From assembly GCA_002898375.1 (NCBI GenBank), contig BEIN01000021.1, forward strand, positions 1 to 46,510: a stretch of DNA of 46,510 nucleotides, given 5' to 3'. A program made the position numbers and the translations under genes. Positions 2,111 to 46,336 of this stretch are shown one piece after another. Below the pieces are notes generated by a model. It was not told the origin of the DNA. It made no database searches and saw only the letters and a list, made by a program, of their open reading frames with translations. Each line of letters begins with the position of its first letter. Within the stretch, counting starts at the first letter, position 1. The DNA is from a bacterium HR37. Its GTDB lineage: Bacteria; Desulfobacterota_D; UBA1144; Nemesobacterales; CSP1-2.

Positions 2111-4120
2111 ATGGGCAAGTGGAAAAAACTGGGTATAGGGGGACTGGGGATAGTGGTTACACTTAGCCTCCTTTTCTTTTTTACAGGAACCCTGCAAACA
2201 AAAAGCCAGCAGGGCAAACTCCCAAAGGGGGCAGAAGAGATTGCAAGGGCCCGTGGGCTGAGCCCACAGGATATAGAGGCCGCCCTTAAAACCTACGTTC
2301 CCACCGGGAAATACGATGAGTACATAATGTTTTCCTCAGGTGGTCACTCAGGTCAGATTCTTGTAATAGGTGTACCCTCAATGAGGCTTCTTAAGGTTAT
2401 AGGGGTTTTTACCCCTGAGCCATGGCAGGGTTTTGGCTTTGGCTCCAAAGAGTCAGGAGATATCCTAAAGGCTGGCTACATGCCTGTTGGAAAGGACAGA
2501 ACCCTTACCTGGGCAGATACACACCACCCTGCACTGAGCGAGACGAATGGAGACTATGATGGTCAGTACCTGTTTATAAACGATAAAGCTAACTCAAGGA
2601 TAGCAGTTATTGATCTAAGGGATTTTGAAACAAAGCAGATTGTAAAAACACCAAACATGATTTCAGACCACGGAGCTACCTTTGTAACACCCAACACAGA
2701 ATACGTTATTGAAGGAGGTCAGTATGCAGCCCCCATTCCCTTCTCAAACTACGCACCACTGGAAGAGTACAAGGAAAAATACAGAGGGCTAATCACCTTC
2801 CACGCATTTGACAGAAAAAAGGGAAGAATAGATGAGAGCAGGTCATTTCAGATAGAGCTACCCCCCTACTGGCAGGACCTCTGTGATGCTGGAAAGAAAG
2901 AAAGCTACGGATGGGCCTTCTGTAACTCACTTAATACAGAGATGGCAACGGGTGGCATAGAAGAGGGGAAACCCCCAATAGAGGCAGGTGCCTCTCAAAG
3001 GGATATGGACTATCTCCATGTTATAAACTGGAAAAAGGCTGAAGAGGTGGTTAGGGCAGGAAAGGTAAAGGAGATCTCCGGTATTAAGGTTATACCACTT
3101 GAAACCGCTGTTTCAGAGGGCATCCTCTACTTTATTCCGGAGCCAAAGAGCCCACACGGGGTGGATGTGGCTCCCCGTGGAGACTACATCGTTGTTTCCG
3201 GAAAGCTTGATACCCATACCACCATATACAGCTTTAAGAAGATACAGAACGCAATTAAGGCTAAAAACTTTGAAGGAAAAGACCCCTACGGTGTACCAAT
3301 CCTAAACTTTAATGACGTGGTAGAGGCTCAGGTAGAGATAGGGCTTGGACCACTTCATACCCAGTTTGACGATAAGGGAAATGCCTATACCAGTGTGTTT
3401 ATAGAAAGCACGATAGCCAAATGGACACTTGGAGAACCCTACAATCCAAAGGAAAAGGCGTGGAAGCTGGTTGAGAAGATACCCGTTCACTACAACGTAG
3501 GACACCTTGTTTGTGCCGAGGGTGACACTGTCTCCCCAGATGGCAAGTACTGTGTTTCGCTAAACAAGTGGTCAATAGATAGATTCACCCCCGTTGGACC
3601 GCTTCACCCTCAAAACTTCCAGCTTATAGACATAACGGGAGAGAAGATGCAGCTTCTCTACGACATGCCAATAGGAATAGGAGAACCACACTACGTCCAG
3701 ATGATAAAGGCTGATAAGCTAAGCCCATGGCTAGTATATCCAGAGGTTGGGTTTAACCCGGCAACAATGAGCAAAAGCGATACCGCACCCCTTCCGGGAA
3801 AGGAAAAGATAGAGAGAAAGGGCGATACCGTAGAGGTCTGGATGACAGCTATAAGGAGCCATTTTAACCCTGAGAGGATAAAGGTAAAAGAGGGTGATAA
3901 GGTGGTTCTTCACATAACAAACATAGAGCGTGCAAGGGATGCAACACACGGATTTGCAATTGATGGTTACAACATAAACCTAAGCCTGGAACCGGGAGAG
4001 ACAAGCACAGTTGAGTTTGTTGCAGACAAACCTGGAGTGTATCCGTTCTACTGCACGGAGTTCTGCTCCGCACTTCACCTCGAGATGGCAGGTTACCTGC
4101 TTGTAGAACCAAAGAAGTAA
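2111..4120 (+). CDS. nosZ: NosZ, nitrous oxide reductase (clade II-like, Sec-exported)
   Basis: NosZ reduces N2O to N2 in the periplasm. The 669-residue protein starts with a hydrophobic Sec-type signal or anchor lacking a twin-arginine motif, the usual mark of clade II. The seven CuZ histidines can be matched in order: the HH of ADTHHPAL, SDHGA, SPHGV, PLHTQ, VGHLV and EPHYV. The C-terminal cupredoxin domain has the CuA motif CTEFCSALHLEM, so both copper sites look intact. It sits 2 bases behind the cytochrome c gene and heads nosD, F, Y and L. The mRNA segment after the stop folds into a strong GC hairpin (4128-4153). Confidence 0.97.
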   Translation: MGKWKKLGIGGLGIVVTLSLLFFFTGTLQTKSQQGKLPKGAEEIARARGLSPQDIEAALKTYVPTGKYDEYIMFSSGGHSGQILVIGVPSMRLLKVIGVFTPEPWQGFGFGSKESGDILKAGYMPVGKDRTLTWADTHHPALSETNGDYDGQYLFINDKANSRIAVIDLRDFETKQIVKTPNMISDHGATFVTPNTEYVIEGGQYAAPIPFSNYAPLEEYKEKYRGLITFHAFDRKKGRIDESRSFQIELPPYWQDLCDAGKKESYGWAFCNSLNTEMATGGIEEGKPPIEAGASQRDMDYLHVINWKKAEEVVRAGKVKEISGIKVIPLETAVSEGILYFIPEPKSPHGVDVAPRGDYIVVSGKLDTHTTIYSFKKIQNAIKAKNFEGKDPYGVPILNFNDVVEAQVEIGLGPLHTQFDDKGNAYTSVFIESTIAKWTLGEPYNPKEKAWKLVEKIPVHYNVGHLVCAEGDTVSPDGKYCVSLNKWSIDRFTPVGPLHPQNFQLIDITGEKMQLLYDMPIGIGEPHYVQMIKADKLSPWLVYPEVGFNPATMSKSDTAPLPGKEKIERKGDTVEVWMTAIRSHFNPERIKVKEGDKVVLHITNIERARDATHGFAIDGYNINLSLEPGETSTVEFVADKPGVYPFYCTEFCSALHLEMAGYLLVEPKK

Positions 4121-4127
4121 AACAGTA

Positions 4128-4153
4128 TGCCCTGCCCCCTCTGGGGCAGGGCA
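4128..4153 (+). terminator. Strong GC hairpin after nosZ, without a T-run
   Basis: The arms TGCCCTGCCCC and GGGGCAGGGCA pair perfectly over 11 bp around a CTCT loop. The following bases are AAAACC, not a T-tract, so this is unlikely to be a simple intrinsic terminator. It more likely stabilises or processes the nosZ message or attenuates read-through into the accessory genes. Confidence 0.7.
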
Positions 4154-4187
4154 AAACCAAACTTCGTAAGTAAGGAGGGAACCAGGC

Positions 4188-4559
4188 ATGAGGAGGTTAA
4201 ATATATTTTCCATTTTGCTTCTCTTCCTAATTACAACCACCACGGGATTTTCCCAGAACGGATACAGGGAAAGTGCCCTTTCGTGGCAAAAGCAGGCAAA
4301 AGATACAAGGAAAGCGGTGGTAGGTGTTTTAGAGGAGCTTGAGAAGATCGGAGATAAGGGAAACCCTGATGCCAAAGGTCTTATAGAGGATACCAAAAAA
4401 TGGCTTGAAGAGGGAGATAATGCCCTTTCCAAAGCAGATAAGGAGATTGAGAAGGAAGACTATGAGAAGGCATCCTATGACTACAATATGGCCTGGCAGT
4501 ACTACGTAAAGGCCGCAACGGCTGGGCTGAACGCAAAGAGGGTGCTTACAGGGCAGTAA
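4188..4559 (+). CDS. Small exported alpha-helical protein in the nos operon
   Basis: I do not recognise a family. The 123-residue product has a clear signal peptide (about residues 1-22, ending near TGFSQ) and then a mature part that is almost all amphipathic helix, rich in Lys, Glu and Ala with aromatic residues near the end (YNMAWQYYVKAA). There are no cysteines or histidines for metal or haem. The start at 4188 has ggagggaacc upstream. It lies between nosZ and the NosB-like gene on the same strand, so a periplasmic part in N2O reduction or copper centre assembly is possible, but this rests only on position. Confidence 0.75.
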   Translation: MRRLNIFSILLLFLITTTTGFSQNGYRESALSWQKQAKDTRKAVVGVLEELEKIGDKGNPDAKGLIEDTKKWLEEGDNALSKADKEIEKEDYEKASYDYNMAWQYYVKAATAGLNAKRVLTGQ

Positions 4560-4596
4560 GGAAAGCCAATTTAAATAAAACTTAGGAGTTTATATC

Positions 4597-5298
4597 ATGC
4601 AAGAAAGAAGGGAGAGTATAATTACGTCTTGGATTCCGGGGCCAATACTTGATAGAAAGAGAAGGATAGTGGTTGCGGTTCTCTCCGTAATGGCTATTGT
4701 CTTTCTTGGGTTATCCTTTATGTTTCCATACTGGAAGGTAACCCTTAAAGCACCTCAGTATCCACAGGGACTCCACGTATACGTCTACCTAAACAGGGTT
4801 GAAGGAGATACCTTTGAGGTAGACCTCTTAAACCACTACATAGGTATGAAGAAGCTGGAAGAGGCTGCAAAACTGGAGCGTTCGCTTGCACTCTACATAG
4901 TAACCCTTATCTCACTCTTTACACTGTTTTTCGTTTTCTCAGGCAAGAAGGTTATGAGCCTCTTTGCAATACCCGCCCTCATCTTTCCAATAGGGTTTCT
5001 CCTAGACCTTTTTTACTGGCTCTACAGGTTTGGACATGACCTAGACCCCCATGCCCCGATAAGGTTTAAACCCTTTACCCCGACCCTTATAGGGGAGGGA
5101 AAGATAGGTCAGTTTGCCACCATAGGAACACTGGGGCTGGGCTTTTACCTGGCAATGATTTCGTTTATCCTTGTAGTTATTGCCCTAATCTTGAGGTTTA
5201 CGGTTTGCAACGCATGTCCATACAAAGAAAAGTGCTCACTTGTCTGTCCACACTTGTTCTTGTGGCCGCCTCGGCAGCATCAGGAGGAGAAGCGTTAG
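4597..5298 (+). CDS. NosB-like polytopic membrane protein of the nos cluster
   Basis: The 233-residue protein has about five hydrophobic segments (near residues 25-45, 96-115, 119-140, 170-200), a LNHYIGM motif between the first two, and a cysteine-rich C-terminal tail CNACPYKEKCSLVC. Clade II nos clusters, such as that of Wolinella, carry a multi-spanning protein (NosB) between nosZ and nosD, and this gene has the same position and type; the assignment comes from layout, not an alignment. The Cys tail could bind copper or an iron-sulfur centre. The 3' end overlaps the start of nosD by about 85 bases, which is unusually long. Confidence 0.7.
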   Translation: MQERRESIITSWIPGPILDRKRRIVVAVLSVMAIVFLGLSFMFPYWKVTLKAPQYPQGLHVYVYLNRVEGDTFEVDLLNHYIGMKKLEEAAKLERSLALYIVTLISLFTLFFVFSGKKVMSLFAIPALIFPIGFLLDLFYWLYRFGHDLDPHAPIRFKPFTPTLIGEGKIGQFATIGTLGLGFYLAMISFILVVIALILRFTVCNACPYKEKCSLVCPHLFLWPPRQHQEEKR

Positions 5299-6638
5299 CA
5301 AAAACGCTTTTTGTCTCCCCCGGTGGGCCCTTCTACTCTATCCAGGAAGCTATAAAGAGAGCAGAGAGTGGAGACACAGTAGTGGTTAGAGGCGGAACCT
5401 ATAGAGAACACGTCGTTTTGGATAAAACACTGAAGCTAATAGGAGAGGGTAGACCTGTTATTGACGGTGAAGGCAGGGGAACCGTGGTACTTATAAAGGC
5501 CCCACGGTGCACACTAAAGGGATTTAAGATAACACAAACGGGAAGCAGCCTTACAACAGAGGACTCTGCCATACTTCTTGATTCCGCAGAAGAGAGCACA
5601 GTTGAGGACAACCACCTAGAAGATGTGCTTTTTGGGATATATCTTAAGAACTCCCCCCGCACCCTGGTTCGCAATAACGTGGTAGTGGGGAAAAAACTCG
5701 ATATGCCAAACAGAGGGGATGGGATACGGCTCTGGTATAGCTCTGAGACCAGGATAGAGAACAACTTTATTACCCAGACAAGGGATCTTGTAATATGGTT
5801 CTCAAGTAAAACCCTCATTGTGGGAAATACCGTGGAAAAGGGAAGATACGGACTCCACTATATGTACAGTAACGATAACACCTTTGAAGACAACGTTTTT
5901 AGAGAAAACCTGGTGGGTGGTTTTCTCATGTACAGCAGGGATATACGGTTCTACCACAACGTATTTGCCCACAACCAGGGCCTTGCAAGTGGATACGGGA
6001 TAGGATTTAAAGACCTAGACAATGTGGTGGCCGAAGAGAACCTTTTTGTGGATAACAGGGTTGGGCTTTATCTGGATAACTCCCCTCATCTTATAGATTC
6101 CTGGAATGAGATCAGAAGAAACGTAATAGCCTTTAACGACATAGGAGCATCGCTTATGCCCTCAATAGAGAGGAACATCTTCTTTGAGAACAGCTTCATC
6201 GAAAACACAGAGCAGATTGAGGTAAGGGGTGGAGGAACCCTTTCTGGAAACAGGTGGTATGTAAACGGAAGGGGAAACCACTGGAGCGATTACGTGGGTT
6301 ACGATGACAATGGCGACGGTATAGGAGACATACCTTATCTGGCAGAGAGCCTGTTTGAGAGCATAATAGACAAGTATCCAAACCTGAGAGTGTTTATCTT
6401 CAGCCCGGTATCACAGGCAATAGAGTTTGCATCAAAGACCTTTCCCGTAATGAAACCCGAGCCCAAGGTGGTGGATAAATACCCCCTAGTAAAACCCATT
6501 ATTCCGGATATCTTTAAGGCAAGAAAAGGTGGATTCTCTGGAAGTTTTTTAACCGTCTCAATTATCCTGGTAGCCTTTCCCCTGGGGTTTTACACCTACC
6601 TCATCAGATACGGAAGGAGAAGATCAGGTTACAGATGA
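5214..6638 (+). CDS. nosD: NosD, periplasmic copper-centre maturation protein
   Basis: NosD is a periplasmic beta-helix protein that works with the NosFY transporter to assemble the CuZ cluster of NosZ. The product (about 474 residues) has a signal peptide (about residues 1-30), repeated parallel beta-helix turns (NosD/CASH type, for example VEDNHL, VRNNVV, IENNFI), and a C-terminal membrane segment near residues 440-465. I chose ATG 5214, which overlaps the preceding gene by 85 bases, because no later start retains a plausible signal peptide. The stop overlaps the nosF start by 4 bases, pointing to translational coupling. Confidence 0.92.
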   Translation: MSIQRKVLTCLSTLVLVAASAASGGEALAKTLFVSPGGPFYSIQEAIKRAESGDTVVVRGGTYREHVVLDKTLKLIGEGRPVIDGEGRGTVVLIKAPRCTLKGFKITQTGSSLTTEDSAILLDSAEESTVEDNHLEDVLFGIYLKNSPRTLVRNNVVVGKKLDMPNRGDGIRLWYSSETRIENNFITQTRDLVIWFSSKTLIVGNTVEKGRYGLHYMYSNDNTFEDNVFRENLVGGFLMYSRDIRFYHNVFAHNQGLASGYGIGFKDLDNVVAEENLFVDNRVGLYLDNSPHLIDSWNEIRRNVIAFNDIGASLMPSIERNIFFENSFIENTEQIEVRGGGTLSGNRWYVNGRGNHWSDYVGYDDNGDGIGDIPYLAESLFESIIDKYPNLRVFIFSPVSQAIEFASKTFPVMKPEPKVVDKYPLVKPIIPDIFKARKGGFSGSFLTVSIILVAFPLGFYTYLIRYGRRRSGYR

Positions 6639-7534
6639 TTACAGTAAGGGAAGTAACAAAGCGATTTAAGGATATAAAGGCTGTAGATTGTGTATCCTTT
6701 AACGTGAAAAAAGGGGAGGCGGTTGCACTGCTTGGAGCAAATGGGGCCGGGAAAAGCACACTGATAAAATGCATTCTTGGACTTCTAAGCTTTGAGGGGG
6801 AGATAACCTTAAACGGGCTTAATGTAGAGAAGAGCTCAAAAGAGGCAAAATCACTTATAGGCTATGTTCCACAGGAGCCTGTTTTCTACGATATGAGGGC
6901 TTTGGATATACTTGAGTTCTTCGGTGCCATACGCGGGGTTGATATGGGAAGGATTGAAGAGATTGTAAACCTTGTTGGACTCAGAGAGCACATTCTAAAA
7001 CAAAGCTCTGCACTTTCAGGAGGCATGAAACAGAGGCTATCCTTTGCCATTGCCCTTATTTCCAACCCCCCTATCCTTGTGCTTGATGAACCCACCTCAA
7101 ATCTGGATGCTTATGCAAGGGCTGAGTTCTTAAAGCTTATAAGGGAACTTAAACTACAGGGAAAAACCGTGCTTTTCTCTTCCCACAGGCTTGATGAGGT
7201 AGAGTTTCTTGCAGACAGGGTGGTTGTTATGAAATCCGGAAAGGTTGTTATGGAAAGCAAACCCAATGTGCTTGCAGAAACGCTGGGACTTAAGGTCAGG
7301 ATGTATATAAAGGTACCAACACCCTGGATTGAAACGGCAACGGACATACTTAAGAGAGAGGGCTTTGGTGCGGTTACCCTGAACGAAAACACCCTCCTTT
7401 TGGAGGTTACCTCACGTGAAAAGACAATCCCCTTAAAGAAGCTCTTATTTGCAGAGATACCCGTAGAAGACCTCAGCATTGAAGAGCCCTCTATGGAGAG
7501 GATTATGCAAGAGGTTCAAGGAGATGGAATTTAA
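6635..7534 (+). CDS. nosF: NosF, ABC transporter ATPase for NosZ maturation
   Basis: The 299-residue cytoplasmic ATPase shows a Walker A (GANGAGKST), a Q-loop (GYVPQEP), the ABC signature (SALSGGMKQR), a Walker B (ILVLDEPTS) and the H-loop (FSSHRL). With NosY it is thought to supply sulfur to the CuZ site through NosD. The start ATG overlaps the nosD stop, and the 3' end overlaps nosY by 11 bases, so D, F and Y are tightly coupled. The residues after about 215 form a small extra domain, as in related NosF proteins. Confidence 0.93.
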   Translation: MITVREVTKRFKDIKAVDCVSFNVKKGEAVALLGANGAGKSTLIKCILGLLSFEGEITLNGLNVEKSSKEAKSLIGYVPQEPVFYDMRALDILEFFGAIRGVDMGRIEEIVNLVGLREHILKQSSALSGGMKQRLSFAIALISNPPILVLDEPTSNLDAYARAEFLKLIRELKLQGKTVLFSSHRLDEVEFLADRVVVMKSGKVVMESKPNVLAETLGLKVRMYIKVPTPWIETATDILKREGFGAVTLNENTLLLEVTSREKTIPLKKLLFAEIPVEDLSIEEPSMERIMQEVQGDGI

Positions 7535-8357
7535 AAACGTCCTTCTTATCATGCAAAAAGAGGTAAGAGAAGCCCTTAAGAACAGATGGTTTATCATCTA
7601 CACGGTCTGCTTCTCCATTCTTGCCCTGCTTCTTCTTTTTTTTTCCTACTCTAGAGAGGAGATACTGGGTGTTTCAGGGTTTGGAAGAACGGCCGCAAGT
7701 CTTATTAACCTTGTTCTGCTCTTTGTCCCTCTTGTATCCCTTGTAACTGGTGCAATAAGCATCTCAAACGAGAGGGAAAACGGAACCCTCTTTTACCTGC
7801 TCTCCCACCCGGTAGAAAGGTCTGAGGTGTTTACCGGAAAGTTCCTTGGGCTCTTGGTCTCGATATGGGTATCCATATGCCTTGGATTCGGTCTCTCAGG
7901 AATTGTGGTAGGAATAAAAGGGGGAAGCCTTGGTGCATCAAAATACCTCCTTACAACCCTTCTTTCCCTGCTTCTTGCCGTATCCCTTCTCAGTATCGGT
8001 TTTATAGTCTCTGTGCTCTCAAAGAAGGCAGCAAAATCGATTGGGATCTCAGTTTTTCTCTGGCTTTTTTTTCTTGTGTTCAGTGATCTTGGCATAATGG
8101 GAACAACCATTGTAATGGATCTTGGCATAAAACCGGTTTTTGTACTTGCACTTCTTAACCCAACGGAGGTGTTTAAGATAGCAGCGGTACTAAACATGAG
8201 CCCAAGGTTTGAGGTTCTTGGTCCCGTTGGCGTATATGCACTTAGAAGCTTTGGAAGGGATGGTACATTTTACCTGCTCTTCTCCGCAATGATTCTCTGG
8301 ACAGTTATTCCAATTGTAATAGGCTTTCTTGCATTTACCCTTTTAAAAAAAGAATAA
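7524..8357 (+). CDS. nosY: NosY, membrane permease of the NosDFY system
   Basis: The 277-residue protein is an ABC-2-type permease with about six membrane segments and the conserved SISNERENGTLFYLLSHPV stretch after the second segment. ATG 7524 has aaggag just upstream and lies inside the last codons of nosF; a longer frame from 7479 would have no ribosome site. It pairs with NosF and NosD in NosZ copper-centre assembly. Confidence 0.92.
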   Translation: MEFKNVLLIMQKEVREALKNRWFIIYTVCFSILALLLLFFSYSREEILGVSGFGRTAASLINLVLLFVPLVSLVTGAISISNERENGTLFYLLSHPVERSEVFTGKFLGLLVSIWVSICLGFGLSGIVVGIKGGSLGASKYLLTTLLSLLLAVSLLSIGFIVSVLSKKAAKSIGISVFLWLFFLVFSDLGIMGTTIVMDLGIKPVFVLALLNPTEVFKIAAVLNMSPRFEVLGPVGVYALRSFGRDGTFYLLFSAMILWTVIPIVIGFLAFTLLKKE

Positions 8358-8384
8358 CCTACCCCTCTTTACACGGAGGTTAAC

Positions 8385-8825
8385 ATGAATAAGTTGATAA
8401 CTCTCCTTCTTCTCCTCCTTCTTTCCTGTAAAGGGGAATCGGAGATAAGGCCTGTAGAGATCCACTATGGGGAAGATACCTGTGATAGGTGCAGGATGAT
8501 AATTACCCAGAAGGAGTTTTCTGCCCAGTATGTCCTTGTAGATGGCAGGGCAAAGATATTTGATGACATAGGGTGCATGGTTCATTCCCTGGAGAAGGAA
8601 GGGAAAAAAGTAGCAGCAGTATTTGTAAGGGATTACCACTCAGGTGAGTGGATAGATGGGAAAGAGGCATTCTATATAGGAAGCCATACCATAAAATCAC
8701 CCATGGGATATGGGGTTATTGCTACCAGGGATAGAGAGCGTGCAGAGCAAACCGCACGCCAGAAGGGTGCAAAAGTCTTTAAAGGGCTAGAAGAGGTAAA
8801 GCCCTGGGTGCTTGAGCAAAGGTAG
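8385..8825 (+). CDS. nosL: NosL, copper-binding lipoprotein
   Basis: NosL is a membrane-anchored copper chaperone that delivers Cu(I) for NosZ. The 146-residue protein starts with a lipoprotein signal ending in the lipobox LLSC and carries the metal-binding motif CDRCRM with a downstream Met and Cys (DDIGCMVHS), all typical of the family. It has a good ribosome site (cacggaggttaac) and is the last gene of the nos operon. It meets the CBS gene of the opposite strand 9 bases later. Confidence 0.93.
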   Translation: MNKLITLLLLLLLSCKGESEIRPVEIHYGEDTCDRCRMIITQKEFSAQYVLVDGRAKIFDDIGCMVHSLEKEGKKVAAVFVRDYHSGEWIDGKEAFYIGSHTIKSPMGYGVIATRDRERAEQTARQKGAKVFKGLEEVKPWVLEQR

Positions 8826-8836
8826 GTACTCTACCT
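8820..8836. terminator. Short hairpin between convergent nosL and CBS gene
   Basis: AGGTAG and CTACCT form a perfect 6-bp stem around GTACT, overlapping the nosL stop and the end of the opposing gene. It is short and has no T-run, so it is only a weak bidirectional terminator candidate. Confidence 0.3.
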
Positions 8837-9434
8837 AGCCACATTCCCCACCCTTAGATACGTTAACGCCAAGCTCCCTCTCTTTCAATTTCCTGTTCAG
8901 TTTATCGAAATCACAGTTAACAACCCAGAGGTAAAATACACCGGCTTCCTTTCCCGAAACAAAGGAAAGAACCCTCTCAGAACACATCTGAAAGACCTTT
9001 ATTACCTCAAGCACATCCGTTTCCTTATCGTGTACAAGAACCTTAACCCTAAGCGGTTCCTTCGATAAACCAAAGAGGTTTAGAAACCCATCAAGGATAT
9101 CGGTAACGGTTAAGATTCCAACCAGCCTTCCATCCCTTGAGATAACCGGGAGCGCATTAAACTTCTTATCGCGTATGATACGTGCGGCCTTCTCCAATGT
9201 TGTATCCTCAGATACCGTAATGGGCCTTTGTGTCATTACATCCGCTACCTTAAGCTCAGGACGGAAAAGGGCTAACCTTAGGTCTCTGTCCGTAACTATC
9301 CCTATAAGCCTGCCATCCCTAACCACCGGAAACTGACGAAAGCCGTGTTTTCTTAGCAGGTAAAAAGCATCTCTTACATTTTCTTCCGGTTCTATGGTTA
9401 CCGGATCAGGGGTCATACAGTTTCTAACAAGCAT
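8835..9434 (-). CDS. AcuB-like protein: two CBS domains plus C-terminal ACT-like domain
   Basis: The 199-residue cytoplasmic protein has two CBS motifs (about residues 1-60 with MTPDPVTIEPEENVRDA, and 65-125 with DVMTQRPITVSEDTTLEKA). Such pairs form one Bateman module that binds adenine nucleotides or related ligands. A 65-residue C-terminal part with alternating strands and helices recalls the ACT-like domain of AcuB proteins. ATG 9434 follows gggaggtg; a longer frame to 9491 would cross the sigma-54 promoter at 9473-9488. It is transcribed alone from that promoter, which has the 17-bp repeat (site E) upstream. Target protein unknown. Confidence 0.87.
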   Translation of the reverse strand: MLVRNCMTPDPVTIEPEENVRDAFYLLRKHGFRQFPVVRDGRLIGIVTDRDLRLALFRPELKVADVMTQRPITVSEDTTLEKAARIIRDKKFNALPVISRDGRLVGILTVTDILDGFLNLFGLSKEPLRVKVLVHDKETDVLEVIKVFQMCSERVLSFVSGKEAGVFYLWVVNCDFDKLNRKLKERELGVNVSKGGECG

Positions 9435-9472
9435 CTTCTCTACACCTCCCTTAGTTTTTACTCCAAGGAATG

Positions 9473-9488
9473 TGCAAAAAGGATGCCA
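9473..9488 (-). promoter_or_regulatory. Sigma-54 promoter of the AcuB-like CBS gene
   Basis: Read on the minus strand this is TGGCATCCTTTTTGCA, with GG and GC separated by exactly 10 bases. The predicted start point near 9462 leaves a short leader carrying gggaggtg before the ATG at 9434. Confidence 0.85.
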
Positions 9489-9538
9489 CACACAACCCCT
9501 TCTTATTACTTGGAAATGGAAACCGGCAAAATGCAGTA

Positions 9539-9555
9539 TGTAAGAAAATCTGACA
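9539..9555. promoter_or_regulatory. 17-bp inverted repeat (site E)
   Basis: TGTAAGAAAATCTGACA is a member of the six-copy repeat family. Its centre (9547) is 72 bp upstream of the GC of the sigma-54 promoter at 9473-9488, almost the same spacing as at sites A and C. Confidence 0.7.
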
Positions 9556-20913: not shown

Positions 20914-22104
20914 CTATGCCTCCGCATAGCCCATCTCCAGTGCTTTTTTCCAGAACCCCGGGATCTCATCGAGCATACCATCGGCCAGTTTCCTTATCGA
21001 TTCCACATCCACATCATCTCCCCTGACCTTAATATCTAGCATAAGAGGCTCATTAATTGGCTTTCCTATCTGAGACACAATGTAAACGGAGGACTCTTTT
21101 GCATACCCCCTCTCAACTATAGCCCTACTTAGCTCCATGGCAAAAACGTTGTAGATTTTACCTACGTGATTTACGGGATTTTTACCACACACGGCCTCAA
21201 GACTCATAGGTCTGTACGGGGTTATAAGCCCATTTGCCCTGTTTCCCCTTCCAACCTGACCATCGTCTCCCTGCTCTGCACTTGTGCCCGTTACTGTCAT
21301 GTATATGCTCTCTGTGTCGTAGTTATCCGCAGTATTTATGGCTATATCCAGTTCCATAGTATCGGTGTTTATGTTCTCCAGAAGAAACCTCCTAACCTCA
21401 CTAACCTTCTCCACATAATCCCTTAGGTTCTCTACATATCTATCCACAACTGCCATAGCAATGGTTAGCCTTGCCCTGTGTCCTTCTCTCACACCTATAA
21501 CCTTTACATCCTCACCTATAAATGGATACCTTACCTTTACCTCGCTACTGTTTAACAGTTTCTCCGTCCTGTAAACAACGGTCTCAAGCTCATCAAGAGG
21601 GAAAAACCCCACCCCAATAGAGGTATCGTTTGAAAGAGGAATCCCTTTCTCTTTGCCGTATCGCTTAAAAAGCTCAACCAGCTCCCTGCTACCCGGTCTT
21701 ATCCTTGTACTTACGGAGACGTGTTTTTCAACATCTATGTGCCTTATAAAGTGCTTCAACCATTGCTTTGCCGCATCCATAACAACCTCATCAACAGGTA
21801 ACTTTTGACCCCCCATGTCTCTTATCGCCCTCCCAACGATTATAAGCTCTATTGGCTTTACCACCCGTCCTCCCCTGTAAGACGGGATTGCCTCCCCACC
21901 CACAAGCAGGGCCTTATCAAGGTTGTGGTGTAGAATCATGCCAAACTCGTTTAGGTAGTACCTGCTAAGGGCAGCTGAGGCATGTTCAACCACACCGTCA
22001 CATATGGTATCAGGATGACCTCTTCCCTTTCTTTCAACAACCTCAACATGCCCTTCATAGGGCGCTCTCTCCCTCTGGTAATCTATGTATATGCTTTTAT
22101 CCAT
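20914..22104 (-). CDS. Archaeal-type S-adenosylmethionine synthetase
   Basis: The 396-residue cytoplasmic enzyme makes S-adenosylmethionine from methionine and ATP. It belongs to the archaeal MAT family, not to bacterial MetK: the N-terminal ERKGRGHPDTICDGVVE segment, LVGGEA, and the GTSAEQGDDGQVGRGNRANG block are all characteristic. Length is as usual for that family. Several bacteria have this form, mostly thermophiles. It stands alone between site F and the divergent R3H ATPase. SAM is used by at least three methyltransferase or radical SAM proteins later in the window. Confidence 0.93.
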   Translation of the reverse strand: MDKSIYIDYQRERAPYEGHVEVVERKGRGHPDTICDGVVEHASAALSRYYLNEFGMILHHNLDKALLVGGEAIPSYRGGRVVKPIELIIVGRAIRDMGGQKLPVDEVVMDAAKQWLKHFIRHIDVEKHVSVSTRIRPGSRELVELFKRYGKEKGIPLSNDTSIGVGFFPLDELETVVYRTEKLLNSSEVKVRYPFIGEDVKVIGVREGHRARLTIAMAVVDRYVENLRDYVEKVSEVRRFLLENINTDTMELDIAINTADNYDTESIYMTVTGTSAEQGDDGQVGRGNRANGLITPYRPMSLEAVCGKNPVNHVGKIYNVFAMELSRAIVERGYAKESSVYIVSQIGKPINEPLMLDIKVRGDDVDVESIRKLADGMLDEIPGFWKKALEMGYAEA

Positions 22105-38666: not shown

Positions 38667-40247
38667 CTACTCCTCAGGCTGATGTTCCCTGCGTAGCAGA
38701 TCCAGAACGGTTTTTACAGGACTGAAAGTGGTTAGAGGAACCTCAACAAATACCGTATTCCAGTATGCCATTGAACCATTCCACAACCCAGGAAGCTCTA
38801 GAGCCTTAATCCTTACACCGTCCTTTGATTTAATAGAGATAAATCCGGTATTTGGATTCACAAACCTAGTTAGATCAAAAGGATTTCCCCTATAATCCCT
38901 AACACCGCACACAAGGTCAACGGGATTAAAGTGGGTTGAAGACTCCCAGATAGAGCGCTGCACCGAAGAGCTAAAATCAACCTGAGAGGACTCCACTATC
39001 TGTAAGGAAAGTTCCCCTTTCTCATCTTCCACCCAGAACGGCCCCCCTCCTGGCTCTCCCTGATTTCTAACCATACCACAGACCCTAAGGGGTCTATTGA
39101 ACTTAGAAAAAAGAAACCTTACCTTTTCCTCCCGCAACCCCTTTTCCATCCCATCGGGGGGCACAATACAGAGCCTGCTTCGTGCAAACTCAAACATCTC
39201 ATTGATCAGGGCATCGGTTACATCACCAGACACCAGCCTCTCAAGATAACCGAATATGGTTTTTTGTAATTCAACAAGATACCCACCAAGAACCTTTTTA
39301 TAGAGGTAGGTTTGGGGTTTTAACCAATCGGGAGCTACATTATCTATGTTCTTTATAAAGACAATATCACCCTTTAGCCCGTTTAAATTTTCAAGCAAAG
39401 CTCCATGCCCACCCGGACGAAAGACCAATCGTCCATCCCTATCCCTAAGCGGCCTATTACCCAGGTCAACCGCTATCGTATCAGTTGAGGGGTTCTGAAT
39501 TGAAAACCCTATCTCATACCTTACCCCTTCTTTTTCTTCATAAAAACCACGTACCTTTTCCATAAAGTCCTTTATGGTCTCTAGGTGCTCAGCTGGCACA
39601 GTAAAATGAACCCTTGCGGTGTTACTTTTATCCCTTACGTAATTTGCTGCCTCAACAAGGTGTTCTTCAAAAGCCGTACGGCAGTGATCCCCATAGCAGT
39701 GAAACTTTATAAGCCCCTTTGGAAGGCTGGCATAGTTAAGACCTTTTGGGGTAAGAATATACTCAAGCACTAACTTATAGTTTCCCTTTGCTATAAGCTC
39801 TTCCAATTGAATTCCGTCCCTTAACATAACCGCCTTTAGATCATTGTAGAAGGCAAACTTCTTTATCCCCTTTATAAACTCGAGGAATCTTATGTGCTCG
39901 ATATCCCCCTCCTTAGCCCTAGCAGAAACCACATCTTCATCAATCTCTTCATAGCGATTGTAGAAAGAAACAAGAAGCTCAAACATCCTGCTTGCAGCAC
40001 CAGAGGCAGGAACGAATTTCATAGCTCTTCCCTTTAATGCCTCATATATGTAAAGACTTACAAGCCTCTCAATGTCACCTCTATCCACAACAAAGATGCC
40101 ATCGCCCACTGTGCAGGGACGGTTTAGCCTGACAAAGGGAAACCCTCTCTTAAAGACCTCTATCTGTGAAATTACCCGCTCAGGGGTCATTCCCCTTGCC
40201 TTTATTTGCTCGATATCCTCCTTGGAAAGAGTAACCGGTTTGCTCAT
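38667..40247 (-). CDS. DUF4301 protein
   Basis: The 526-residue protein matches DUF4301, with ALKGRAMKFVPASGAASRMF near residue 90 and FRPGGHGALLENLN near 285. These regions recall the nucleotide-binding loops of sugar-nucleotidyltransferases, but no reaction is established. No signal peptide. The ribosome site aggtgtg is adequate. It begins the minus-strand run to the MCE and hydrolase genes, 29 bases upstream of the MCE gene. Confidence 0.8.
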   Translation of the reverse strand: MSKPVTLSKEDIEQIKARGMTPERVISQIEVFKRGFPFVRLNRPCTVGDGIFVVDRGDIERLVSLYIYEALKGRAMKFVPASGAASRMFELLVSFYNRYEEIDEDVVSARAKEGDIEHIRFLEFIKGIKKFAFYNDLKAVMLRDGIQLEELIAKGNYKLVLEYILTPKGLNYASLPKGLIKFHCYGDHCRTAFEEHLVEAANYVRDKSNTARVHFTVPAEHLETIKDFMEKVRGFYEEKEGVRYEIGFSIQNPSTDTIAVDLGNRPLRDRDGRLVFRPGGHGALLENLNGLKGDIVFIKNIDNVAPDWLKPQTYLYKKVLGGYLVELQKTIFGYLERLVSGDVTDALINEMFEFARSRLCIVPPDGMEKGLREEKVRFLFSKFNRPLRVCGMVRNQGEPGGGPFWVEDEKGELSLQIVESSQVDFSSSVQRSIWESSTHFNPVDLVCGVRDYRGNPFDLTRFVNPNTGFISIKSKDGVRIKALELPGLWNGSMAYWNTVFVEVPLTTFSPVKTVLDLLRREHQPEE

Positions 40248-41274: not shown

Positions 41275-41967
41275 ATGATTACAGGTTTTGAATCAATAAA
41301 CAACTGGTATGAAAAACCCCTTGGATACCTCTACTTTGAGAGGGTAAGCTCCAAGCTGGATAAACTGCTAAGATCCTACAACCCATGGGGAAAACATATA
41401 TGTGCACTAGATGCTGGATGCGGCTCAGGTCAATACACCCTCTATCTTGCAAGCAACCACACATATAACACAGTAGGGATTGATAAATCCCGGGTTCTTG
41501 TCTCTAAAGCCTTAAAAAAATCGGAAGAAAAGGGCCTAAAAGCGGATTTTCTTAACGCAGATATCTCTTCCCTACCCTTTAAATCAGAATCCTTTGGGTT
41601 GGTCTTGTGTATTAACGTGATTGAGTTTGTCCAAAACAAGATCGAAGCAGTAGGAGAGCTAAAAAGGGTACTTTCACCTGAAGGCATCATTATCCTAGGT
41701 GTATGCAACAAATACGGTCTCTGGGGACTCATTAAAACGGTAGCCAAACCCTTTAAGAGAGGCGACCCCTTTTTTAAGGGAAATTTCCTCTCACGAACCG
41801 ACATAAAAGATATAGCACAAAAGACAGGACTCAAGCTACTACACATAGAGGAAGAGATATACTTTCTCCCTTTTAAGGATATTAGAGCAATAACCTTTAG
41901 CGAAAAGATCGTAAAAAAGTACCTAAAAGTCCTTCCCGGGCTTTTAATTGCATGCTTAAAAAAATAA
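41275..41967 (+). CDS. SAM-dependent class I methyltransferase, possibly with the radical SAM gene
   Basis: The 230-residue protein has motif I ALDAGCGSGQYTLYLA, a motif II acidic end (GIDKSRVL), SLPFKSESFGLVLCINVIEF and LSPEGIIILGVCNKYG. It ends 85 bases before the large PqqD/radical SAM/ArsM gene on the same strand. The start has little or no ribosome site, so translation may be leaderless. Whether it acts in the same pathway is unknown. Confidence 0.83.
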   Translation: MITGFESINNWYEKPLGYLYFERVSSKLDKLLRSYNPWGKHICALDAGCGSGQYTLYLASNHTYNTVGIDKSRVLVSKALKKSEEKGLKADFLNADISSLPFKSESFGLVLCINVIEFVQNKIEAVGELKRVLSPEGIIILGVCNKYGLWGLIKTVAKPFKRGDPFFKGNFLSRTDIKDIAQKTGLKLLHIEEEIYFLPFKDIRAITFSEKIVKKYLKVLPGLLIACLKK

Positions 41968-42052: not shown

Positions 42053-44554
42053 ATGCAGGAAAATGCAATCTTACATGCCCCACCCTATATACAGAAGGAG
42101 CTGGATGGACTTTACCTATTTATTGATCCCGAAGGTCCCAACTGGCTAAGTACCGATTTTAGAGGAGCAAAGATAATTGGCCTTATAGATGGGAAAAAAA
42201 CGTTTGATGAGATTGTAAGGCTTTACTCAAAATACCTGAGTATAAGCACAGCAAAGGCCTGGGTTCATGTGGATTCGTTTATCAATGAAGCAATAAGGGA
42301 AAAGTTTGTATCATACACTCCATTTACCAGGGCACCTTACAATGGACGAATCGAACACGTATATATGGACAATCTAGAGGAACTCTGGATACATACAAAC
42401 AACTCCTGTAACCTTCAGTGCACACACTGCCTGGTAAGCTCAGGCCCATGGGAAGACAAAGGTCTATCAACAGAGGAGATAAAAAACATAGTTGATCAGG
42501 GAAGGGAACTTGGGGTATTTCGTTTTTTCTTTACCGGAGGAGAGCCGTTTATAAGAAAGGACATATACGAGCTGATAGAGTATGTTACACAGGAGCCGAA
42601 CTCAGAGCTTATAGTTCTTACAAACGGAATGTTGTTTAACAAAGAGAGAAACATAAAACAACTTCTCGAGGTGGCAAGAGGAAGGTTAAAACCACAGATA
42701 AGCCTTGACGGTTCAACACCTGATATAAACGATGCAATTCGGGGCAAAGGAACGTTTGTAAAGATAGTAAACGGAATAAAAACAGCCGTTGATTTGGGCT
42801 TAAATCCGACCGTTACCACAGTTATTACCTCAGAAAACGCACACGATGTTCCAAACATCACAAAGCTTCTTGCATCCCTCGGGGTACAAAGACACCACCT
42901 CCTCTGGGTTCATCAGAGAGGAAGAGCGGTAGAGGGGGAAAAAGACATCATGGTTCCCGTACACAGATTGATAGAAGTCGTAAAGAAGGTAAAAAACACA
43001 GCAGACCAGGTAGGAGTCATAATAGATAACTTTGAATCAGTAAAAGCAAAGCTAAAAGCAAAGAAATTTACCAAGTTCGACCTAAGCAATGCCTGCTGGA
43101 AAAGCCTCTGTGTTTACTCTGATGGACAGGTATATCCATCCGCCGCACTTGCAAATTTCTATGGCCTTGGTTGCGGCAACATAAAAGAGAAACCTCTTGT
43201 AGAGATATGGAGGAAAAGTCCTATCTGCAACACGTTTAGAAGGGCAACCGTTCAGAAAAAGACAAAGTGCAGCAGCTGTTACCTAAAGTTTATATGTGGA
43301 GGCGGAGATATAGAACACTCCTACTTTTACTCAGCCACAACCTACGGGAAAGGAGATGTACACGGACAAGACCCCTACTGTGAGCTTCACGAGTACATGG
43401 TTATTTCAACCCTCTTTGAGCTTGCTGAGGAAAACTATAAAAGATTATCTAAGAAATCCGGATTTGACGCTCCTTTGGTGTTTACCAGCATGGGAGATGA
43501 TGCTACCTCCTGTGGAACTCATGGTTCTAATGGAAGGGTAAAACCCCCTTCGGATTTTAACGTAGAGCTTTCCCATTCTAACTGTGTGCTTACGTTTAAA
43601 CTGGACAGAACACACGAAGCGGTAAGAGAGTTCTACGCAAAGGCAGCAGAAAACCCCCAGAAAGAACTCTGCTGTCCTACAGGTTATCCAGAGGAAGACA
43701 CAAGCCACATTCCTCAGGATGTTATAGAGAGGTTTTATGGATGCGGAAGCCCAATAGGCATGGCCGGAATAAAACAGGGAGAAACTGTAGTGGATCTTGG
43801 ATCAGGTGCCGGAATAGACTGCTTTATTGCAGCGAAAAAAGTTGGACCATCCGGAAAGGTAATAGGAATTGACATGACAGAGCAAATGCTTGGTGTTGCA
43901 AGAGGATGTAATCCAAAAGTTGCAGCCAACCTTGGATATGATGTCGTAGAGTTTAGAAAGGGTTTTTTAGAAGATATACCGGTTGAGGACAGCTCAGCCA
44001 ATCTTATCACATCAAACTGTGTAATAAACCTGTCACCAGATAAAAAAAGGGTTTTTTCCGAAATGTGGCGTATACTCAAAGACCACGGAAGGATAGTGGT
44101 TTCAGATATAGTGTCGGAATCAGAAGTTCCCTCTCATATAACTACAAATGAAAAACTCTGGGGTGAGTGTATAGCCGGAGCACTAACGGAGAAACAGTTT
44201 CTCTCCTATCTTGAGCAGGCAGGCTTTTACGGGATCGAGATACTTCAAAAAAGGTTCTGGAAGACCGTTGAAAACTACAGGTTTTTCTCAATAACGGTTA
44301 AAGGGTATAAGTTTGAGAAAAAAGCAGGATGTGTTTTTAGAGGACAGAAGGCAATATACCTTGGTCCATTTAAAGCCGTAATAGATGAGGAAGGGCATCT
44401 TTTCCCAAGAGGTGAGGAAGTAGAAATCTGTACAGATACGGCGGAGAAACTATCAACCGCACCTTATGAAGGAATGTTTACAGTCATTGAGCCAGATACA
44501 GAGGAAAACCAAGTCTCTGGGACAGGTTGTTGCAACACCTCCTGCTGCTGTTAG
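42053..44554 (+). CDS. PqqD-like / radical SAM-SPASM / arsenite methyltransferase fusion
   Basis: This 833-residue protein has four parts: a PqqD-like domain (about 5-95), a radical SAM core with the 4Fe-4S motif CNLQCTHC (Cys 119, 123, 126) and FTGGEPF, a SPASM auxiliary-cluster domain (Cys 348, 353, 374, 406, 409, 415), and a C-terminal ArsM-type methyltransferase (about 530-760; YGCGSP, DLGSGAGIDCFIA). The ArsM As(III)-binding cysteines appear intact: Cys 540/541 (LCCPTGY), 656 (SNCVINLSPDK) and 706 (GECIAGA). It ends in CCNTSCCC, a thiol-rich tail. The ribosome site ataaggaggag is strong. Such fusions point to organoarsenical synthesis; the product is not known. Confidence 0.88.
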   Translation: MQENAILHAPPYIQKELDGLYLFIDPEGPNWLSTDFRGAKIIGLIDGKKTFDEIVRLYSKYLSISTAKAWVHVDSFINEAIREKFVSYTPFTRAPYNGRIEHVYMDNLEELWIHTNNSCNLQCTHCLVSSGPWEDKGLSTEEIKNIVDQGRELGVFRFFFTGGEPFIRKDIYELIEYVTQEPNSELIVLTNGMLFNKERNIKQLLEVARGRLKPQISLDGSTPDINDAIRGKGTFVKIVNGIKTAVDLGLNPTVTTVITSENAHDVPNITKLLASLGVQRHHLLWVHQRGRAVEGEKDIMVPVHRLIEVVKKVKNTADQVGVIIDNFESVKAKLKAKKFTKFDLSNACWKSLCVYSDGQVYPSAALANFYGLGCGNIKEKPLVEIWRKSPICNTFRRATVQKKTKCSSCYLKFICGGGDIEHSYFYSATTYGKGDVHGQDPYCELHEYMVISTLFELAEENYKRLSKKSGFDAPLVFTSMGDDATSCGTHGSNGRVKPPSDFNVELSHSNCVLTFKLDRTHEAVREFYAKAAENPQKELCCPTGYPEEDTSHIPQDVIERFYGCGSPIGMAGIKQGETVVDLGSGAGIDCFIAAKKVGPSGKVIGIDMTEQMLGVARGCNPKVAANLGYDVVEFRKGFLEDIPVEDSSANLITSNCVINLSPDKKRVFSEMWRILKDHGRIVVSDIVSESEVPSHITTNEKLWGECIAGALTEKQFLSYLEQAGFYGIEILQKRFWKTVENYRFFSITVKGYKFEKKAGCVFRGQKAIYLGPFKAVIDEEGHLFPRGEEVEICTDTAEKLSTAPYEGMFTVIEPDTEENQVSGTGCCNTSCCC

Positions 44555-44573
44555 AAACCACTAGGGAATCCCA

Positions 44574-45218
44574 ATGATTAAATCCCCTAAGCAGGTGCTT
44601 ATTGTGTTTTTAAAGTATCCCGAACCAGGGAGGGTAAAGACCCGGTTAGCAAGAGATATAGGCCGGAGGAATGCTTCCCTTATATATTCAGAGATAGCCC
44701 AAAGCGTTATAGGTAAGGTATCTAAATCAAACGAATACAAAACCATTATCTTCTTTGACCCACCGGAGAAAGAAGAGGAGGTAAGGAGATGGCTAAAGAA
44801 CACTAACCTAACCTTACTGCCCCAGGAAGGAAACCTACTCGGTGAAAGGATGTTAAATGCCTTTGAAAGAGCCTTTTCTCTGGGAGCAACAAGCACCGTT
44901 ATAATCGGGACCGATTGTATGGAAGTCTCAGATAAGACGGTTTTAGAAGCCTTCCAGGCACTAAGGGAGGTAGATGCTGTTTTAGGTCCAGCAAGAGACG
45001 GTGGCTATTACCTCCTCGGACTTAACAGACCCTTTCCTTTGGTATTTAAAGGCATAGAGTGGAGTACAAACCTTGTGCTTAGCCAAACCATAAAAAAACT
45101 AGAGGAAAAGAAACAAAGGTTTAAGCTGTTAGAAACCCTAACGGATGTTGATACAATAAGAGACTTAAGTAAGGAGTTGCTACTCAAGGTTAAGGAAGAT
45201 AAGAAGTGGACACTTTAG
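44574..45218 (+). CDS. TIGR04282-type glycosyltransferase (arsenosugar-associated family)
   Basis: The 214-residue protein starts with LIVFLKYPEPGRVKTRLA-like sequence (VLIVFLKYPEPGRVKTRLA here), followed by GTDCMEVSD and LGPARDGGYYLLGL, the hallmarks of the TIGR04282 family, named for arsenosugar synthesis. It has a GT-A nucleotide-sugar fold. The gene lies 19 bases after the ArsM-fusion gene and overlaps the Pit transporter by 13 bases, so the three are one operon. The family also occurs in other settings, so the arsenosugar role is supported mainly by the neighbour. Confidence 0.83.
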   Translation: MIKSPKQVLIVFLKYPEPGRVKTRLARDIGRRNASLIYSEIAQSVIGKVSKSNEYKTIIFFDPPEKEEEVRRWLKNTNLTLLPQEGNLLGERMLNAFERAFSLGATSTVIIGTDCMEVSDKTVLEAFQALREVDAVLGPARDGGYYLLGLNRPFPLVFKGIEWSTNLVLSQTIKKLEEKKQRFKLLETLTDVDTIRDLSKELLLKVKEDKKWTL

Positions 45219-46336
45219 TTCTTATTTTGCCATTATTCTTGCTTTCATTTGCAAACGGTTCAAATGATGTCTCAAAAGGGATATCCACACTTGTTGGAAG
45301 CAGAATAACGGGTTATAGGAGTGCCATTATATGGGGAACAGCCTGTACTGTAACCGGAGCAATAGTTTCAGCCTTCTTTGCAGTTGAGATGATAAAGACG
45401 TTTTCCGGGGCGGTAAACTCAGATTCGATAGATATCGTGTTTCCAATTGCTGTTTTTACAGGAGCATCTATATGGGTTATCATCTCCTCAAGAACAGGTA
45501 TGCCTGTTTCCACAACCCATGCAATAACAGGTGCGCTCTTTGGAGCAGGCACCCTAGCAGTCGGCCTTAACAACCTGGAATGGCAGGTGCTTGGGAAAAA
45601 GATAATACTTCCCCTTGCCTTTAGTCCTCTCATTGCACTAGGACTTTCATGGTTGCTTTTCCCGGTAATCCGGAGAGTATACTCCATTATGGGAAACTAC
45701 TGTATATGCATTGAGAAGAAGGAAGTGGTCCTTTACATTCCCGTTTCAAAGGCTATGCCAGGGACAATAAGTGCAATAGCCCAGGTGAAACCGATTCCGC
45801 AAACCTCCCTAATAGCAGCAGAGAAGAGTGCCTGCCAAGATTACCTCTATTCAAACAGAAGGGTAGATTTTCCTGACCTCTTTCACTGGTTGTCCTCAGG
45901 AATGACAAGCTTTGCGAGGGGATTAAACGATACCCCCAAAATCGTAGCCATTGCGCTTACCATGACAGATGTTGAAACTGGGATCCATAAAACACTCTTT
46001 TTCCTGGCAGCTTCCCTTGCAATGGGGATTGGAAGCATGGTATCCGGGCTAAGGGTTACAAGGACTCTTGCAGAGAGGATTACCCCAATGAACCCACAAG
46101 AAGGGTTGGTGGCAAATATAACCACCTCTATACTGGTAACCATAGCCGCAAGGTTTGGGATCCCCGTTTCAACAACGCATGTATCCAGCGGTTCGATAAT
46201 AGGGATAGGCCTTAAGTGTGGAATGGAAAGGGTAAAGTGGAGGATTGTGGTTGAGATGGTTCTTGCATGGATTGTTACCCTGCCTTTCTCCGCACTAATT
46301 GCATTTCTTGCCTTCTGGGGCTTAAACAGACTCTAA
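45206..46336 (+). CDS. Pit-family phosphate (and arsenate) permease
   Basis: The 376-residue protein has about ten membrane segments and both signature repeats, FANGSNDVSKG and FARGLNDTPK, with two TGMPVSTTH/FGIPVSTTH segments. Pit proteins take up phosphate as a metal-phosphate and also import arsenate. The GTG start at 45206 lies inside the glycosyltransferase gene. Its position suggests that arsenate or phosphate uptake feeds, or results from, the adjacent pathway. Confidence 0.9.
   Translation: MDTLVLILPLFLLSFANGSNDVSKGISTLVGSRITGYRSAIIWGTACTVTGAIVSAFFAVEMIKTFSGAVNSDSIDIVFPIAVFTGASIWVIISSRTGMPVSTTHAITGALFGAGTLAVGLNNLEWQVLGKKIILPLAFSPLIALGLSWLLFPVIRRVYSIMGNYCICIEKKEVVLYIPVSKAMPGTISAIAQVKPIPQTSLIAAEKSACQDYLYSNRRVDFPDLFHWLSSGMTSFARGLNDTPKIVAIALTMTDVETGIHKTLFFLAASLAMGIGSMVSGLRVTRTLAERITPMNPQEGLVANITTSILVTIAARFGIPVSTTHVSSGSIIGIGLKCGMERVKWRIVVEMVLAWIVTLPFSALIAFLAFWGLNRL

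Follow-up and report, generated by a model that had tools for sequence, protein, structure and literature searches.

Does a bacterial reading frame that joins a peptide-maturase-like radical SAM enzyme to an arsenite methyltransferase make an organic arsenic compound, and if so does it do so in place of the separate enzymes of arsenosugar biosynthesis? The question is raised by one gene and its neighbours in the window, the 46,510 nt stretch of DNA analysed here (bacterium HR37, assembly GCA_002898375.1, contig BEIN01000021.1). The original prediction had described a PqqD-like/radical SAM/SPASM/ArsM fusion followed by a glycosyltransferase and a Pit transporter, and had proposed that it may make an unknown organoarsenical or act on a thiol-rich peptide, possibly its own tail. 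The features of the locus are collected in Table 1.

Table 1. Features of the fusion locus (window coordinates; residue numbers are those of the 833-aa protein).
Position	Strand	Feature	Basis
42053..44554	+	Fusion protein RRE (PqqD-like)-radical SAM-SPASM-ArsM, 833 aa	Open frame; profile searches; family alignment
42053..42337	+	PqqD/RRE-type winged-helix domain, residues 1-95	AF2 model, pLDDT 89; Foldseek TbiB1, E 2.4e-4; Pfam PqqD in 11/19 members
42398..42868	+	Radical SAM core, residues 116-272	Pfam PF04055, E 7e-25
42407..42430	+	CX3CX2C motif (C119, C123, C126) for the SAM-cleaving [4Fe-4S] cluster	Sequence; invariant in 19 fusions
43094..43282	+	SPASM domain (C348, C353, C406, C409, C415), residues 348-410	Pfam PF13186, E 1.5e-7; C406/409/415 absent in one acidobacterial member (L095)
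43511..43585	+	Linker with two extra invariant cysteines, C487 and C511 (HSxCVL motif)	Invariant in 19 fusions, kept in DUF5714-type fusions
43598..44542	+	ArsM arsenite methyltransferase domain, residues 516-830	Profile searches and PDB comparisons
43670..43675	+	C540-C541, position of CmArsM C44	Family alignment; assignment by position
43742..43744	+	C564, equivalent of CmArsM C72	PDB alignment
44018..44020	+	C656, equivalent of CmArsM C174	PDB alignment
44168..44170	+	C706, equivalent of CmArsM C224	PDB alignment
44528..44551	+	Cys-rich C-terminal tail CCNTSCCC; a final CC is also found in unfused ArsMs	Sequence; family alignment
44574..45218	+	TIGR04282 family (arsenosugar biosynthesis-associated) glycosyltransferase	202 bits, cut-off 134
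45206..46336	+	Pit/PHO4-family phosphate (arsenate?) permease; overlaps the preceding gene by 13 bp	Pfam PF01384, E 3e-69
41275..41967	+	Class I methyltransferase upstream; probably not part of the system	Relatives have an ArsR gene or nothing at this place

The architecture was first examined by profile searches and structure comparison, and the observation was confirmed. In the ArsM part Pfam Methyltransf_31 (PF13847) was matched over residues 573-724 (E 6e-34), the top PDB hits were CmArsM and CrArsM, and the NCBIfam arsenite methyltransferase model NF008823 gave an E value of 2e-74, although its 250 bits fell below the 263-bit cut-off. Identity to ArsM structures (CmArsM, CrArsM, AS3MT) was 29-33% in structure alignments; the fusion differs from these in carrying a radical SAM half of ∼510 residues at its N-terminus. 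The PqqD signal was weak in the window protein alone (E 0.07 for the whole protein, 0.004 for the isolated domain), but the best Pfam PqqD hit among the 19 family members had an E value of 4.9e-7, and the predicted fold of residues 1-108 matched the lasso-peptide RRE TbiB1 and, more weakly, PqqD, so that the PqqD-like assignment is right. The N-terminal half resembles the RRE-rSAM-SPASM peptide maturases (CteB, SkfB, SuiB, TigE) in domain order and predicted fold, with a match to CteB across RRE-rSAM-SPASM (TM 0.72 by target length).

Full-length homologues occur in several phyla, which excludes chance. The fusion is conserved at 53-72% identity in Dadabacteria-type genomes, anammox and other Planctomycetota, Zixibacteria and Acidobacteriota, and thus in at least four bacterial phyla. 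Conservation of the ArsM cysteines had been set beforehand as a test of the arsenic reading: C540, C541, C564, C656 and C706 were invariant in 19 fusions, and the As-binding cysteines were conserved in every homologue examined except the divergent DUF5714 type, which lacks the first one, so this test was passed. That the locus encodes an arsenic enzyme, and is not a gene-calling artefact, is supported.

The key result came from comparison of operons. Order-level relatives carry arsM-TIGR04169-arsS-TIGR04282-(Pit)-TlpA-CcdA with a separate arsM and arsS (TIGR04167), whereas the fusion genomes of the family carry fusion-TIGR04282-Pit-(TlpA-CcdA) with no arsS or TIGR04169 in the operon. The shared genes are homologous; the Dada glycosyltransferases were 41-56% identical to the window glycosyltransferase against 28-45% in other phyla. 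ArsS over the cut-off was found in 0/5 fusion genomes of the family and in 0/21 others (0 of 26 in total), but in 5/5 split-arsM genomes tested and in a same-family genome with no fusion detected; neither ArsS nor TIGR04169 was over the cut-off in the window genome. TIGR04282 or Pit lies within about 9 kb of 26 of 32 long fusions, across phyla; six fusion loci (L081, L082, L085, L088, L091 and L148) lack both within the DNA examined. The glycosyltransferase link is real and recurs in other phyla, although TIGR04282 is named from association and not from biochemistry.

There are further, independent unions of radical SAM and ArsM proteins. Short RRE-less rSAM-ArsM fusions (604-619 aa) occupy the same anammox-type neighbourhood, GT2-DUF3179-U466 (U466 being a membrane protein); an RRE-rSAM-ArsM-DUF5714 form occurs in Acidobacteriota; and in proteobacteria a separate rSAM gene lies beside arsM. 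The fused radical SAM domain is not ArsS by sequence, and its reading as a divergent ArsS was rejected on score and tree: it reached 58.8 bits against the 300-bit TIGR04167 cut-off, over positions 4-148 only, gave better scores to NirJ2/Rv1681/AhbD and took a separate place in the rSAM tree, in which branches were long. An ArsM tree was considered as proof that the split state came from the fusion; the split ArsMs fell among the long fusions and the long fusions formed one clade in only 4% of bootstrap trees, but the AU test did not reject one clade (p 0.38), so the tree does not settle whether the fusion or the split state came first.

The protein is most likely a bifunctional organoarsenical synthase that stands in for the ArsM + ArsS pair of arsenosugar biosynthesis (probability about 0.58). 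In this view As(III) would be bound and methylated by the C-terminal ArsM domain, the methylated trivalent arsenical would pass to the radical SAM-SPASM half, perhaps over the linker cysteines C487/C511, and the radical half would cleave SAM and join a SAM-derived carbon group, most likely 5'-deoxyadenosyl, to arsenic. The TIGR04282 glycosyltransferase and, in anammox bacteria, further glycosyltransferases would then convert the product to an arsenosugar or glycosylated arsenical, and Pit may bring in arsenate. The domains and cysteines were shown by the analysis; the methylation activity, the hand-over and the chemistry of the radical half are inferred, adenosylation from the replacement of ArsS and the later steps from the gene neighbourhood. 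ArsS is reported to adenosylate arsenic and ArsL to transfer 3-amino-3-carboxypropyl (PMC12159101, PMC8552651). The RRE-like N-domain would be a leftover or a docking/scaffold domain inherited from an RRE-rSAM-SPASM maturase ancestor rather than a reader of a RiPP precursor. For this model speak the operon swap, the exclusion of ArsS from fusion genomes, the recurring TIGR04282 or Pit neighbours, the independent rSAM-ArsM unions and the ArsR/SmtB-type regulators beside the operons of relatives. Against it stand the distance of the radical SAM domain from ArsS, the peptide maturase CteB as its closest solved architecture, the six loci without TIGR04282 and Pit, the naming of TIGR04282 from association and the ArsM tree, which does not settle the order of the fused and split states; the proposed functional equivalence could still hide a different transferred group.

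The interpretation offered in the original prediction is partly supported. That a fused form replaces the usual separate ArsM and radical SAM pair is strongly supported by the in-operon swap with ArsS, and an unknown organoarsenical remains possible, although an arsenosugar-type product is the simpler reading. The thiol-rich-peptide or own-tail substrate is not supported: no small ORF was conserved within 3.5 kb of 31 fusions, where the clusters spanning most lineages were antisense shadows of Pit and the remainder lineage-local overlaps (a distant precursor is not excluded); the CC-ending tail is present on all 14 unfused ArsMs of the same order and on the short fusions; and the RRE is absent from these short fusions, the apparent functional equivalent, which fill the same operon slot.

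Of the alternatives, the one that survives best, although unlikely, is that the radical half transfers a different SAM-derived or other group, for example 3-amino-3-carboxypropyl as ArsL does, so that the product is an organoarsenical other than a 5'-deoxyadenosyl-derived arsenosugar. The rSAM domain belongs neither to ArsS nor to its close relatives, ArsL shows that other groups can be moved to arsenic (PMC8552651), and the anammox-type neighbourhoods have other glycosyltransferases, a DUF3179 gene and U466; however, retention of the same TIGR04282-Pit-TlpA-CcdA genes when arsS and the fusion replace one another argues for the same pathway product. Less likely still is plain detoxification, in which ArsM makes volatile or excretable methylarsenicals and the radical half acts on the same arsenical only accessorily or has lost activity. 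The intact ArsM cysteines, the ArsR-type regulators of several relatives and the loss of SPASM cysteines in the acidobacterial member would fit, but CX3CX2C, GGEP and many rSAM positions are invariant over several phyla, which speaks for active selection on the radical half, and the glycosyltransferase link would be unexplained. A RiPP-type system, in which the RRE binds a distant precursor or the protein's own Cys-rich tail, which is radically modified and loaded with methylated arsenic, is the least likely despite the RRE fold, the CteB match and the tail itself, given the precursor, tail and short-fusion results above and the recorded occurrence of RRE-like domains in rSAM enzymes outside RiPP clusters (PMC7470986), although a peptide substrate is not excluded.

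A more far-reaching possibility, also unlikely, is that a RiPP-maturase-type radical SAM enzyme was fused to ArsM so that arsenic is built onto a ribosomal peptide, or a new carbon group is put on arsenic, giving a class of organoarsenical not known from any organism, made by anammox and other uncultured bacteria.

The pairing of an As(III) methyltransferase with a radical SAM enzyme, and a TIGR04282 glycosyltransferase in the same operon, are already known from the ArsM + ArsS systems (Synechocystis SsArsM/SsArsS), whose operon slot the fusion shares in related genomes; the fusion differs from these in being one polypeptide, in having an RRE-rSAM-SPASM protein of another branch as its radical part and in lacking the TIGR04169 AhpD-like gene in the operon. 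In arsinothricin biosynthesis a radical SAM enzyme and ArsM likewise act in sequence on arsenic; there the genes are separate and accompanied by ArsQ, there is no glycosyltransferase, and ArsL is described as a 428-aa protein with one [4Fe-4S] motif at 194-201 (PMC8552651). No ArsQ-like gene was seen beside the fusion. Compared with the RRE-rSAM-SPASM maturases, the fusion is joined to ArsM and lies in arsenic-linked operons, with no precursor peptide gene found.

Literature searches for the fusion found no description of this architecture in the papers searched. It physically ties radical SAM chemistry to arsenic methylation and predicts organoarsenical synthesis in anammox bacteria, Dadabacteria-type lineages and Acidobacteriota, none of which was found described as a maker of arsenosugars in those papers. 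Three unrelated-looking radical SAM types (ArsS, the RRE-SPASM type and the short type) seem to have been recruited for the same step, which makes a direct comparative test of how C-As bonds are made enzymatically; it would also show an RRE-type peptide-maturase scaffold being reused on a metalloid instead of a peptide.

ArsR/SmtB-type regulators with a C-terminal Cys pair sit beside the operons of relatives, but none was found beside the operon of the window, whose genome holds only more distant ArsR-like proteins elsewhere, and a scan for promoters and terminators gave results at chance level. Selenocysteine was considered for two fusions flagged with an in-frame TGA (loci L129 and L133) and was rejected because this codon is the normal stop after the CC tail, whereas a further fusion (L124) has a real internal TAG.

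The observation of the original prediction, a single polypeptide combining a PqqD-like domain, a radical SAM–SPASM core and an ArsM domain, was confirmed. The ORF encodes a protein of 833 aa, in which Pfam and NCBIfam searches identified a weak PqqD match, Radical_SAM and SPASM domains and an arsenite-methyltransferase domain. A search of the PDB aligned residues 550–810 to CmArsM, CrArsM and other arsenic methyltransferases (E = 2e-37) and the N-terminal half to SPASM-type radical SAM enzymes. Downstream lie a TIGR04282 glycosyltransferase gene and a PHO4/Pit permease gene that overlaps it by 13 bp; the contig ends at 46510 and the description of the operon extends only to this point. Coordinates are collected in the table below.

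Positions of the fusion gene, its domains and other features noted in the window and in related loci
Sequence	Position	Strand	Feature
Window	42053-44554	+	ORF of the fusion protein
Fusion protein	residues 116-272		Radical_SAM domain
Fusion protein	residues 348-410		SPASM domain
Fusion protein	residues from about 516 to the end		arsenite-methyltransferase domain
Window	2111-8825		nitrous oxide reductase cluster: NosZ (nos propeller and cupredoxin), NosD-like, ABC and NosL-like genes
Window	20914-22104	-	S-adenosylmethionine synthetase of family PF01941, the type typical of archaea, in a bacterial genome
Window	38667-40247	-	DUF4301 protein (E 2.5e-211), function unknown
L087 and relatives (anammox fusion locus)	3053-8993		neighbourhood of the fusion
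L031 (fusion locus)	9000-9540		ArsR gene upstream of the fusion

The PqqD-like assignment is correct. In the window protein alone the Pfam PqqD match was below its cut-off, but 11 of 19 family members matched this model (best E = 4.9e-7). The AlphaFold model of residues 1–108 (pLDDT 89, pTM 0.80) has the RRE fold, and its best match in the PDB was the lasso RRE TbiB1 (E = 2.4e-4), followed by other RRE proteins and PqqD. The full-length model (pLDDT 77) matched CteB over RRE, rSAM and SPASM (TM 0.72 by target length) and CmArsM over the C-terminal third; its interdomain arrangement is uncertain (pTM 0.61, with a linker pLDDT below 50).

Five genomes of the window's own family were found to have the fusion (67–72% identity). 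A scan of GTDB contigs with the N-terminal half as the query identified 21 further long-type loci in Scalindua, Anammoxibacter, a Brocadiaceae bacterium, other Planctomycetota, a Zixiibacteriota and Acidobacteria gp11, and every one whose contig runs far enough is fused to ArsM. The long form was present in 17 of 392 Planctomycetota genomes and in at least 8 of 297 Acidobacteriota. In an alignment of 19 sequences the rSAM cysteines, the ArsM cysteines, two linker cysteines (C487 and C511, in an HSxCVL motif) and the terminal CC are invariant, whereas one acidobacterial member lacks the SPASM cysteines C406, C409 and C415.

In other families of the same order the corresponding operon consists of arsM (320–355 aa), TIGR04169, arsS (TIGR04167, 415 bits), TIGR04282, sometimes Pit, TlpA and CcdA. 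In fusion genomes of the window's family the order is fusion, TIGR04282, Pit, TlpA, CcdA, with neither arsS nor TIGR04169 in the operon; the shared genes are homologous. In genome-wide searches ArsS reached its cut-off in none of the 5 fusion genomes of the family and in none of 21 other fusion genomes, but did so in all 5 split-arsM genomes tested and in G005, a member of the family without a detected fusion. MAG incompleteness and shared ancestry weaken these statistics, but not the in-place replacement. One fusion genome (G001) has a TIGR04169 gene elsewhere. A second copy of the fusion, cut by the contig end and followed by TIGR04282, TlpA and CcdA, was found at locus L032 of genome G004, which has a full fusion on another contig.

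Other, independent unions of the same two activities were also identified. Nine Planctomycetota genomes have a shorter rSAM–ArsM fusion (about 604–619 aa where read through) with no RRE domain and a different rSAM part; in the short-fusion loci L155–L162 this part carries a C-terminal CxxCx6C motif, and several of these loci lie in the same neighbourhood as the long fusions of Scalindua or beside TIGR04282. In L157, L158 and L162 the short fusion sits beside the same GT2, U466 (an unannotated multi-pass membrane protein) and, in two of them, DUF3179 genes that precede the long fusion in Scalindua. The anammox neighbourhood of the fusion in L087 and its relatives comprises peroxidase-related AhpD, Pit, membrane GT2, DUF3179 and U466, and possibly represents an arsenic glycan or lipid pathway. 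Four Acidobacteriota (loci L201–L204) have divergent RRE–rSAM–ArsM proteins, with a C-terminal DUF5714 domain added where the reading frame is complete (1060–1096 aa); the SPASM cysteines and the first ArsM cysteine are missing, whereas the HSNCV linker motif is kept. Among the proteobacterial loci L103–L108 (Pseudohongiella and others), a separate rSAM gene of ∼326 aa, of a type with no NCBIfam name, lies directly beside arsM in L104, L106, L107 and L108, and L107 also has a TIGR04282-like gene. A tree of the rSAM parts kept ArsS, the short type and the long type apart; because of its long branches only the coarse split was used. Different radical SAM proteins have thus been coupled to ArsM repeatedly, which suggests that the two steps follow each other on one substrate.

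ArsM methylates As(III) with SAM; ArsS adenosylates arsenic in oxo-arsenosugar biosynthesis and ArsL transfers 3-amino-3-carboxypropyl (review PMC12159101; PMC8552651). Whereas the domain content, the conservation, the gene neighbourhood and the exclusion with ArsS were established directly by the present analysis, the chemistry is inferred: the fusion would methylate As(III) and then, by radical cleavage of SAM, join a SAM-derived group, most likely 5'-deoxyadenosyl, to the methylated arsenic. C487 and C511 may hand the arsenical between the active sites, and TIGR04282 would glycosylate a later intermediate. A probability of about 0.58 is assigned to this reading. The protein is not a member of ArsS, because the test for membership of that family failed, but it may well work like ArsS. 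Organoarsenical synthesis by ArsM together with a radical SAM enzyme is already known; in this protein the two are fused. No report of an rSAM–ArsM fusion was found in the papers searched and no NCBIfam model covers it.

The interpretation offered in the original prediction was only partly supported, in that a RiPP-type role, with the protein's own Cys-rich tail as a possible substrate, is unlikely. All 14 unfused ArsMs of the order and the short fusions that were read also end in CC, so that the tail belongs to ArsM and not to the RRE–rSAM half. No small ORF is conserved beside 31 long fusions, although a distant precursor cannot be excluded, and the RRE is missing in a fusion that fills the same operon slot. 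RRE-like domains in radical SAM enzymes outside RiPP clusters are known (PMC7470986).

In both ArsM trees the unfused ArsMs of the order fall among the long fusions, which would fit an ancestral fusion that was later replaced by arsM plus arsS; however, the AU test did not reject the alternative (p = 0.38) and no direction is claimed. The ArsR gene of L031 is broken by in-frame stops in this genome, while it is intact in the fusion locus L029.
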